A DNA stretch of 64,000 bases from Gemmatimonas phototrophica. Lineage in GTDB: Bacteria; Gemmatimonadota; Gemmatimonadetes; Gemmatimonadales; Gemmatimonadaceae. Within the stretch, counting starts at the first letter, position 1. Each line of letters starts with the position of its first letter. A program made the position numbers and the translations under genes. The DNA is taken from the NCBI RefSeq assembly GCF_000695095.2, contig NZ_CP011454.1, positions 2,232,001 to 2,296,000 on the forward strand. The letters run 5' to 3'. Below the pieces are notes generated by a model. It was not told the DNA's origin and ran no database searches. It saw only the letters and a program-made list of their open reading frames with translations. Positions 9,421 to 12,845 of the stretch are shown here, piece after piece.

Positions 9421-10860
9421 GTGACCGCTTCCGATAGATCGACCTACCAGTCTCCACTTGCCGACCGTTACGCATCACGGGCCATGCTCACGTTGTGGGG
9501 GCCGCAGCTGCGCTATGGCTTGTGGCGTCGGCTGTGGCTGGCGCTGGCCGAGTCCCAACAGGCGTTGGGCATCGCGATTCCCGACGAAGCGATTGCCGCC
9601 ATGCGGGAGCATTTGGACGACATCGACTTTGAAGTGGTCGCTGGGTACGAGAAGAAGTTCCGGCATGATGTCATGGCGCACGTGCACGCCTTTGGGGATG
9701 TCGCGCCTGCAGCGCGCAAGTTCATTCACCTTGGTGCCACCAGCTGTTACGTCACCGACAACGCCGAGTTGATACTGATGCGGCGGGGGCTGATACTCCT
9801 GCGCGAGAAGCTGCTCGATGCGCTCGAGGCGCTTGGCGGCTTTGCACGCGAGTGGAAGAACGTGCCGGCCCTTGGCTATACCCACTTGCAGCCGGCGCAG
9901 CTGACCACAGTCGGCAAGCGCGCCACGTTGTGGATGCAGGACATCCTACTGGATCTTGAGGATCTGGAATATCGACTGTCGACCATGCCGTTCCGTGGCG
10001 TGAAGGGGACCACCGGGACACAGGCCAGTTTCCTGTCGTTGTTCGAAGGCGATCACGCAAAAGTGCGTGAGCTGGACCGGATGGTGTGCGCCAAGATGGA
10101 GTTCGCGAGCAGTATTCCGGTGAGCGGACAGACCTACTCCCGGAAGGTGGACGCGCAGGTGCTCGGGGTGGTCGCGGGGATTGCCGCAACGGCGTCGAAA
10201 TTCTCCGGTGATATCCGCATGCTGCAGGCCTTCGGGGAAATCGAAGAACCGTTTGAGAAGAATCAGATTGGTTCTTCGGCCATGGCCTACAAGCGGAATC
10301 CGATGCGTTCGGAGCGCATTGCCGCGTTGGCGCGCTTTGTTCTGTCGCTCGAACCCAACGCGAACCAGACCCACGCGGTGCAGTATTTTGAGCGAACGCT
10401 TGATGATTCTGCCAATCGCCGGCTCGCCATTCCCGAATCGTTCCTCGCGACCGACGCCATCCTGGTCCTGTTGCAGAATGTGGTGCGGGGACTCGAGGTC
10501 CATCCCGCCCGGATCCGCCGCCGTGTGGAAGACGAACTGCCCTTCATGGCCACGGAAGAGCTGATCGTGCGCTTTGTCCGGGCCGGAGGTGACCGGCAGG
10601 AGGCACACGAGATCATCCGCGGGCACAGCATTGATGCGGCGCGGGCCGTGAAGGATGGCGCGCCGAAAAACGACATGCTGGAACGCCTGGCGGCAGATCC
10701 TGCCTTCGGACTTCCGCTTGAGGATTTGCAGGCGGTCGCCGACCCAACGCGTTTCGTGGGGCGGTCCCCCGAACAGGTCGTCGAATTTCTCGACGAACAT
10801 GTTGCCCCGTGGCTCGCTCGTGAGCGCACGGTGACGGAAGTGGAAGAGGTGCGGGTATGA
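9421..10860 (+). CDS. purB: adenylosuccinate lyase
   Basis: Removes fumarate from SAICAR and from adenylosuccinate, so it acts twice in purine synthesis. 479 residues, starting at GTG 9421. The fumarase/aspartase signature [11 protein letters not shown] is present at about residue 282-292, with the upstream [10 protein letters not shown] and [18 protein letters not shown] active-site segments. First gene of a plus-strand purine run; it overlaps purC by four bases (ATGA). Confidence 0.97.
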
Positions 10861-11801
10861 GCGGGGCCACGGTTATGCAGACCGACCTCCCGTTGCCGCT
10901 CGTCCGCCGTGGCAAGGTACGTGACGTTTACGAGGTGGATGCCGATCGGTTGCTGCTCGTTACCACAGACCGGATCAGCGCGTTTGACGTGGTCATGCAG
11001 GAAGCCATTCCCTACAAGGGGGTCGTGCTCACGCAGTTGACGGCGTGGTGGCTGGAGCAGTTGGCCGACACGCTGGAGCATCACCTGATCACCGCCGACA
11101 CCAACGCCATCATCGCGGCGGTGCCGGCGCTGGCGCCCTTTCGTGCCACGCTGGCCGGTCGCACCATGCTGACACGCAAGGCCGAGGTGGTGCCCATTGA
11201 GTGCGTGATTCGCGGGTATATCACCGGATCGGCGTGGAAGGAGTATCAGGCGACCGGGACGTTGGCTGGTGAGGCGCTCCCGTCGGGGCTTCGCGAAAGC
11301 GACCGACTGACGCCGCCCATGTTCAGCCCGGCCACGAAGGCGGAAACGGGACACGACGAGAACATCACCATCGGAACCGTGGTCGATCGTGTTGGCGCCG
11401 ACACGGCTGCCGAATTGGAGCGTCTGGCCAGGACCGTGTACGAGTTCGGTCGGGCCACCGCCGAACCGCGAGGCATTATCCTCGCGGATACCAAGTTCGA
11501 GTTTGGTTGGCGCGACGGACGCCTCCTGCTGATTGATGAAGTGCTGACACCGGACAGTTCCCGGTTTTGGCCGGCCGACAGTTACGAACCAGGACGCGGT
11601 CAGCCGAGTTTCGACAAACAGCCCCTGCGCGATTGGCTGGATGTGGAGCGAAAGGCCGGACGCTGGAACGGCGACGCGCCGCCCCCAACGCTTCCCTCCG
11701 AGATCATCCGCACGACCAGCCTTCGATATCGCGACGCGTTTTTCCGGTTGACCGGTGCCGCCCTCGATCTGGCCGCGCTCGGTCTTCCCGAGGATCGGTA
11801 A
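10857..11801 (+). CDS. purC: SAICAR synthetase
   Basis: ATP-dependent ligation of aspartate to CAIR. 314 residues, the longer bacterial/yeast-like form. Visible: [12 protein letters not shown] (ATP-binding N-lobe), [22 protein letters not shown]-type motif ([16 protein letters not shown]) and the [15 protein letters not shown] signature. It overlaps purB by four bases, so the two are translated as a pair; PurB acts on its product SAICAR. Confidence 0.97.
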
Positions 11802-11805
11802 CGCC

Positions 11806-11961
11806 ATGATTGTGCGCGAGGGCTACCCGGTCATTCTTGGCGCCATGACGGCAGCAGTCGTGCTGTTTGCTGCGGCATTGCGTCTGCGTTCCTGGCCGGT
11901 GTGGTTGATGGCTCTCGCGGCAACCGTGGGTACCCTCATCATTTCATGGAGGTACCGGTGA
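11806..11961 (+). CDS. 51-residue membrane peptide resembling the N-terminus of phosphatidylserine decarboxylase
   Basis: A short frame of 51 residues in the 156-bp space between purC and pssA. It begins MIVREGYPVILG, then two hydrophobic segments (about 8-24 and 30-46), and ends SWRYR. The REGYP start, paired short membrane spans and the aromatic/Arg end match the membrane anchor of the short phosphatidylserine decarboxylases (Psd), which continue FFRDPER and then the catalytic domain. That domain, including its GST/LGST cleavage site, is absent here: the next coding sequence is pssA. The TGA stop overlaps the pssA GTG (GTGA), so it is probably translated and coupled. Either a decayed psd remnant or a retained small membrane protein. 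The homology is judged by eye. Confidence 0.6.
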   Translation: MIVREGYPVILGAMTAAVVLFAAALRLRSWPVWLMALAATVGTLIISWRYR

Positions 11962-12845
11962 GCGCTGGAGAGACCCCTGAACGCCGTCGGATGCGTCCCC
12001 GTCAGGCCGCGGCCATCGCTCTGCCGAACGGGTTCACGCTGGCCAATCTTTTCTTCGGCATCTTTGGAATTGTCGCCGCGTCCCGCGGTGACTTTGACGC
12101 CGCAGCACGGTTCATCGTGTTTGGTGCCATTGCGGACACACTCGATGGCCGAATCGCGCGCGCCACCAAGTCAGGCTCTCGGTTCGGGGAGGAACTTGAC
12201 TCGCTGGTCGATGCCATTTCGTTTGGCACCGCACCGGCGCTGATCATGTACTTCGCCGTGTTCCAGAGCAGTCGATGGGAATGGATCTTCTGCTTCTTTT
12301 TCACGGCCTGCGCCGTCATGCGACTGGCCCGTTTCAACGTGGAACAGGCCGGGCGCAAGAATACCCATTTTACAGGCCTCCCCAGCCCTGCTGCCGGCAT
12401 CACGCTGGCGACCTACTATTGGTTCAGCCAGACCCCGTTGTACACCGAAACCATCATCGGTGATCTCCCGTGGCACCAGATGCTGCGCTGGGTCATGCTG
12501 GGCCTTGGCATGCTCATGATCAGCAACGTCCAGTATGCCAAAGTCCCCACGGTGAATTTCCATTCGCTCAAGGGGATTCTCGGATTTCTGCTGGTTACCG
12601 GCACGTTCATCGGCGTCATTTTCCTGCCGAAGAAGTTCTTCTTTCCTGCGTCGATGGCGTATGTCCTGTACGGCATTCTGCGCACCGTCTTTCTTGGCCT
12701 GCTGGATCGACTCCCCGGACGCGAACATCCGGATGACGATGAAGAGGACGAGGATGATGTCCCACCCCGTCGCCGTCGCCGGCGGCGGCGTCCCAATAGA
12801 AACCAATCCGGTTCCGATACCGGTCGCGAGGAGTCACCCGCATGA
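11958..12845 (+). CDS. pssA: CDP-diacylglycerol-serine O-phosphatidyltransferase
   Basis: Makes phosphatidylserine from CDP-diacylglycerol and serine in the inner membrane. 295 residues. The CDP-alcohol phosphotransferase motif D-G-x2-A-R-x8-G-x3-D-x3-D is complete (DGRIAR...GEELDSLVD, about residues 63-84). Several membrane helices follow. The start is GTG 11958, preceded by GGAGG at 11948-11952; an ATG at 11946 in frame is the alternative. Odd feature: residues about 255-295 form a charged tail, first acidic (DDDEEDEDD) then eight arginines. It is embedded between purC and purS with coupled overlaps on both sides, so a phospholipid enzyme is co-expressed with purine genes. Confidence 0.95.
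   Translation: MSAGETPERRRMRPRQAAAIALPNGFTLANLFFGIFGIVAASRGDFDAAARFIVFGAIADTLDGRIARATKSGSRFGEELDSLVDAISFGTAPALIMYFAVFQSSRWEWIFCFFFTACAVMRLARFNVEQAGRKNTHFTGLPSPAAGITLATYYWFSQTPLYTETIIGDLPWHQMLRWVMLGLGMLMISNVQYAKVPTVNFHSLKGILGFLLVTGTFIGVIFLPKKFFFPASMAYVLYGILRTVFLGLLDRLPGREHPDDDEEDEDDVPPRRRRRRRRPNRNQSGSDTGREESPA

Follow-up and report, generated by a model that had tools for sequence, protein, structure and literature searches.

The described systems closest to the small open reading frame (ORF) reported here are the short-type phosphatidylserine decarboxylase (Psd), the long-type Psd and the general class of small membrane proteins that act as helpers of a larger enzyme in the membrane. The peptide corresponds to the first 51 residues of a short-type Psd (NF003678/PRK05305, TIGR00164; PF02666), with which it shares two helices, a tight loop and then an Arg, as well as the same place in the operon. 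It differs from that enzyme in being a free peptide devoid of the catalytic domain, in which the REG.PF and FFRDP motifs are relaxed and the loop R[SN]W..W[LI] is conserved. The long-type Psd (TIGR00163, the kind of E. coli Psd) probably decarboxylates PS in these genomes, as judged by family match, but the peptide is no part of that enzyme, which is encoded elsewhere. With the small assisting membrane proteins, the peptide has in common its size, its hairpin form and its co-encoding with an enzyme gene, whereas it stands apart from them as the leftover anchor, in several lineages, of the next enzyme of the pathway, and with an assisting role that is proposed here. A search of open papers returned none on Psd with Gemmatimonas, and no stand-alone Psd anchor appeared in titles among the matches listed. 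We consider the product of the ORF to be a small membrane protein derived from the anchor of an enzyme, recurrent and under selection.

The window, that is, the whole stretch of DNA that was analyzed, comprises 64,000 nucleotides of the Gemmatimonas phototrophica genome (4.72 Mb, one contig), and the features given by window position lie on its forward strand. The gene order is purB, purC, the 51-codon ORF, pssA, purS, purQ, purL and purF, where the pur gene names, purC included, are presumed from the sequences and from the order purB-purC-pssA-purS-purQ-purL-purF rather than from a family library. Directly upstream lies purC (SAICAR synthetase, 10857-11801), which appears in the ORF list and in the same order around the relatives. 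The ORF (11806-11961) begins with ATG at 11806, runs for 51 codons and ends with TGA at 11959-11961. It is followed by pssA (11958-12845, open to its stop), which encodes a PS synthase of the CDP-alcohol phosphatidyltransferase type (PF01066, E 2e-23) and whose structural relatives in the PDB are 7b1k and 7pow, both CDP-diacylglycerol-serine O-phosphatidyltransferase (E 1.1e-15). The GTG of pssA at 11958-11960 shares the sequence GTGA (11958-11961) with the stop of the ORF, and a GGAGG at 11948-11952, in the last codons of the ORF and 5 nt before this GTG, is the likely ribosome-binding site of pssA. The original prediction, which had described the stop as fused to the pssA GTG and the catalytic domain of Psd as missing, was right on both counts: between the end of purC at 11801 and pssA there is nothing but the 51-aa ORF, and no catalytic Psd domain is present there. 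This ORF is real beyond chance, because relatives match it at the same place between purC and pssA and its frame is under selection. As a separate observation, the C-terminal end of PssA (12720-12810) carries an acidic stretch, DDDEEDEDD, and after it a stretch of basic Arg residues.

Within the genus, the peptide finds 20 of the 29 other genomes at E values from 5e-17 to 1.3e-6, and the only strong matches are those at pssA; at E <= 1 it matches 29 of the 30 genus genomes, the weak matches probably by chance. The place between purC and pssA was readable in 26 genus genomes, the window's own included, and four were left out of the reading, namely G006 and G009 (no PssA match), G016 (PssA fragment) and G024, where only the end of an anchor-like frame is present at a contig edge. 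The frame stops after 50-59 aa in 19 of the 26 genomes read, and in seven of the 30 (G001, G010, G011, G012, G017, G018 and G029) the matching frame stays open and encodes a complete short Psd, about 216 aa long. The original prediction saw in the ORF a truncated N-terminus of a short Psd, kept as a small membrane peptide coupled to pssA, and the relatives and the omega values given below back this reading. Of the checks proposed with it, alignment with Psd anchors gave 45-57% identity to the peptide over residues 1-51 of the seven full short Psds found at the same place, and the reading frame is open in all 28 anchor-only genomes of the family and under selection. To judge from these alignments, the peptide originated as the two-helix anchor at the N-terminus of a short-type Psd, and it is almost certain that it both has this origin and is a selected protein. 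A possible scar is seen at the ends of some free anchors (RTPAGLPT in G026), which resemble FFRNP joined to the short-Psd ends LPAT and LPTG; such ends would fit an in-frame internal deletion, in a stretch that is too short for proof.

In family models the likeness of the peptide to a Psd anchor is weak, and the firm link is the one through the relatives. The best NCBIfam match is the short Psd model NF003680 (E 0.0023; 17.3 bits vs. a cut-off of 262), which aligns residues 1-38 to profile positions 9-46, and against NF003678 the peptide scores 13 bits vs. a cut-off of 225; short-Psd family scores below cut-off are what is expected of a quarter-length fragment. In Pfam, the window peptide matched no family above cut-off and gave no match to PF02666, and no model exceeded its cut-off for the free anchors run (one of 28 in Pfam, four in NCBIfam), a set of small proteins, for which no family model passes, that this work yields. 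The two membrane spans of the original prediction agree with the helical hairpin predicted by AlphaFold2 (model m0dcaccfb6eb5), whose helices comprise residues 7-27 (11824-11886) and 30-49 (11893-11952), with a mean pLDDT of 87 in the best model and of 65-69 in three of the five models. Between the helices lies the motif RSWPVWL (residues 28-34, 11887-11907), found conserved when 28 stand-alone anchors were compared, and the approximate charge is +2 in the loop, 0 at the N-terminal end and +1 at the C-terminal end. For the short Psd of G001, AlphaFold2 predicts helices at 4-27 and 30-49 together with a beta domain (mean pLDDT 91), and in a Foldseek comparison the predicted structure resembles E. 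coli Psd and PsiD (E 6e-5 to 9e-4; TM-score 0.43-0.50 of the query). A profile of the short Psd matched no PDB sequence at 1e-5, and that of the stand-alone anchor gave only weak, chance-like matches to sensory rhodopsin II (E 0.29-0.67). The ORF is thus predicted to encode a conserved small hairpin protein.

The suggestion, made with the original prediction, that the organism might lack the route from PS to PE did not survive a genome-wide search, which found a long-type Psd 1.6 Mb from the anchor ORF (G000:C1:3860890-3861534, 285 aa). It is the sole PF02666 match of the window genome (E 2.5e-57) and scores 197.7 bits with TIGR00163, whose cut-off is 111.75. With this enzyme encoded at 3.86 Mb, loss of the route was rejected; by family match, the PS-to-PE route is probably kept in the window genome.

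A Psd match is present in 168 of 179 genomes of the family, where the usual state is a short Psd beside pssA (115 such pairs were read) and a long Psd occurs in several genera. In 31 of the family genomes read, the interval from purC to pssA is visible with no short Psd in it: 28 are anchor-only and three (G109, G149 and G156) have no anchor. The 28 were picked by blast and frame reading and their frames then located by the pattern R[SN]W, no interval among the 31 being dropped for want of this motif. Their ORFs, of 50-91 aa, belong to genera g1 (19), g10 (5), g16 (2), g15 (1) and g31 (1). A Psd match is encoded elsewhere in 25 of the 28, truncated at the end of a contig in G073 and G075, and none was found in G003, G021 and G077, which are 70, 83, and 64% complete, respectively; the long-Psd genomes G009, G034 and G134, having no PssA match, were left unplaced. 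The position is always directly upstream of pssA, in the 28 family genomes as in the two found outside the family, and a possible in-frame PssA start overlaps the anchor stop in 25 of the 28, the exceptions being G008, G014 and G087. Four free anchors (L067, L070, L072 and L073, from G073, G076, G088 and G090) have longer tails past helix 2, with total lengths of 72-91 aa, unlike those of the window clade, which have short ends. In a sample of 395 genomes of the phylum, 37 of those listed with a long-type Psd outside the family were taken; a PssA match was obtained for 36 of them and the locus was read in 30, giving three with a short Psd beside pssA, two with a stand-alone anchor (G270 and G364), one with no purC in view and 24 free of the anchor. 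In the longer run, therefore, the anchor is often absent, since at these 24 loci pssA follows purC without it. It is not kept wherever PssA is, being absent alongside PssA in 3 of the 31 family genomes and in 24 of the 26 long-Psd genomes read outside the family, all but G270 and G364.

The free anchor ORF is under purifying selection on its amino acids. A one-ratio codon model gave omega values of 0.09, 0.23, and 0.09 in three anchor-only clades (11, 8, and 5 genomes), each different from 1 at p < 1e-17, and smaller subsets gave 0.07 (4 genomes) and 0.21 (5 genomes). As a control, the two alternative frames of this DNA gave values between 1.6 and 7.4, the latter being the fitting bound. These omega values are rough, as some deep branches reach a fitting bound of about 10 changes per codon; the 5-genome subset, in which no branch is above 0.94, agrees with a low omega. 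The fused anchors of the seven genus genomes gave 0.07, and PssA over 172-178 codons in the same three clades 0.015, 0.004, and 0.017.

The constraint has moved along the peptide: REG.PF and FFRDP, which lie beside the lost domain, are relaxed, and the inter-helix loop R[SN]W..W[LI] is kept. Among the 28 free anchors, A24, R28, W30 and W33 are invariant and L25, S29 and L34 nearly so, while the A, E, G and F of AREG.PF and the FF of FFR.P, invariant or nearly so in 100 fused anchors, are variable in the free ones. The motif [RK]EG is present in 12 of 28 free anchors vs. 113 of 115 fused ones (exceptions: G038 with SEG and G144 with GEG), and R[SN]W in 28 of 28 vs. 80 of 115, the latter counts being neither blind, since the motif served to locate the free frames, nor independent, since 24 of the 28 come from two genera. 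Part of the conservation of the loop motif is shared descent for this same reason; the motif is found as well in the four free anchors from g15, g16 and g31, and the outside-family anchors of G270 and G364 retain SW..WL and have a G where the others have R (GSW, not RSW). The fused anchors were located by an FFR.P-like pattern, which makes that end conserved partly by construction, and the count of invariance covers 100 of the 115 rows, E and G being found in 100 of 100 without selection for [RK]EG; the structure alignment holds 74 of the 113 [RK]EG rows, and there the invariance of E and G is partly by construction.

On a tree of purC and PssA from 48 genomes, the anchor-only state needs seven changes, of which at least five are forced by well-supported branches. 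The long Psds of the window clade and of the G002 clade, both of the same genus, are 39-41% identical and fall in separate well-supported clades. Since two anchor-only clades of one genus carry such divergent long Psds, the Psd was replaced more than once within it, and by inference the catalytic domain was dropped more than once as well. The long Psds of G270 and G364 form a third clade. That the seven genus genomes with a short Psd re-acquired it by transfer was also considered and is unsupported, as their catalytic domains group together with G111, as they do in the purC/PssA tree; the catalytic-domain tree is modestly supported, with 4 of 14 inner branches starred, and orders the genus differently from the purC/PssA tree.

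Starting from the descent, repeated occurrence, purifying selection and shift of constraint to the loop, all established by computation, we explain the ORF as what is left of a short-type Psd, namely its N-terminal membrane hairpin. Decarboxylation of PS would have passed to a long-type Psd with its gene at another place, after which the catalytic domain of the short Psd would have been deleted and the hairpin would have persisted as an independent small protein under selection, with its ORF immediately before pssA. Inside the Psd, the hairpin may already have been a partner of PssA, holding the decarboxylase near the source of its substrate, and with its R[SN]W..W[LI] loop and its helices it may still serve PssA in assembly, in stability or in placement; synthesis immediately before PssA would match the amounts of the two proteins. 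A second role that predates the loss, with PssA as partner, is suggested because the relaxed parts adjoin the lost domain, the loop is kept, the position is always upstream of pssA and the long Psds belong to three groups. We give this whole account, a hairpin retained after replacement as a partner of PssA, an even chance of being correct, and to PssA as the partner slightly less than that. The anchor's own role can be separated from the enzyme that it carried, for the catalytic part was lost several times and the anchor kept under selection, which suggests that what passes for a mere anchor can itself be functional. Also, a physical cooperation of bacterial PS synthase and PS decarboxylase becomes directly testable. 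A wider reading, in which many Gemmatimonadaceae have a PssA with a small hairpin subunit, the anchor of the enzyme that follows in the pathway, kept after replacement by the long type, and in which short Psd anchors generally are PssA-binding modules handing PS to Psd, is offered tentatively, as possible rather than probable.

The partnership with PssA was sought in the sequences themselves. Over 139 pairs of anchor and PssA (effective number 52), mean-field coupling yielded no signal that stands out from shuffles within genera, 2 of 20 of which reach the observed top-ten mean. PssA residue 172 (12471-12473) is Trp in 139 of the 139 family rows that have the residue, four more being gapped. 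Outside the family, W172 is found in five of five genomes with a short Psd or an anchor beside pssA, in 26 of 29 further genomes with a short-Psd match beside pssA, and in 16 of 28 genomes without short Psd or anchor, the other 12 having a different residue. This position was picked by a scan: among 45 columns with a conservation of at least 97%, it alone is retained in fewer than 75% of anchor-free genomes. A test on independent pairs, of low power (6 pairs on starred branches, on average 5.7 without difference), gave p = 1; W172 is therefore only a lead. Instead, the hairpin may be a membrane protein in its own right that works with neither PssA nor Psd, its partner being, for example, a protease, an insertase or an envelope-stress factor, as conservation of sequence alone was seen and neither the coupling nor the W172 test established PssA. 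We regard it as unlikely, though still a serious contender, since the hairpin is directly upstream of pssA in every case read (28 genomes in the family, two outside) and originates in an enzyme of the same pathway; the search for anchors at other places covered the genus, and its strong matches all lie at pssA.

The overlap of stop and start, possible in 25 of 28 genomes, and the GGAGG inside the ORF end would also be expected of a translational leader, kept only so that terminating ribosomes start pssA, with amino acids immaterial beyond an open frame. Such a leader would not call for the strong amino-acid selection seen here and absent in the shifted frames, nor for conserved loop residues, and it is not needed in anchor-free genomes, where pssA lies directly behind purC: the distance from the purC stop to the PssA match is 2-35 nt in 19 of the 24 anchor-free genomes outside the family, and similar in G109 and G149. 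We consider it improbable. Nor do we give much weight to a hairpin that serves the replacing long-type Psd by docking that enzyme at the membrane near PssA. Such docking would agree with the Psd match elsewhere in 25 of 28 anchor-only genomes, the other three being 64-83% complete, but RSW anchors accompany two divergent groups of long Psd and the GSW anchors of G270 and G364 a third, and the relaxed parts, REG and FFRDP, are those next to the lost catalytic domain. This pairing with three groups points away from the new Psd as the partner.

A neutral remnant of the deleted gene would explain why some lineages have no anchor, in one instance with the difference falling between near relatives (G137 and G149 share one long-Psd clade and only G137 has the anchor), and why it evolves faster than PssA, which is far more constrained (omega 0.004-0.017 vs. 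0.07-0.23 for the free anchor); with omega far below 1 in three clades, shifted frames above 1 and a frame open in all 28 genomes, this reading is very improbable. The reverse order, a free hairpin first and its later fusion to a Psd catalytic domain, for which no supporting observation was found, is hardly credible, as a short Psd with an N-terminal anchor is the norm across the family and is also seen in other families of this phylum, and the general short-Psd model NF003678 itself spans the anchor (residues 2-213 to profile 8-217).

Some further observations concern the distribution of these enzymes. G011 (L041 and L017) has both a short Psd beside pssA and, on a 5-kb contig, a divergent long Psd that is 35% identical to that of the window genome, a double set that represents either an intermediate of replacement or contamination. 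Genus g78 of family f7 may lack Psd, as six of its genomes (G204, G208, G214, G215, G218 and G225) are without a PF02666 match at 94-98% completeness. Finally, L226, a record titled Candidatus Kuenenia stuttgartiensis that is probably a misnamed bin, contains a pssA with 79% identity to the one in the window.
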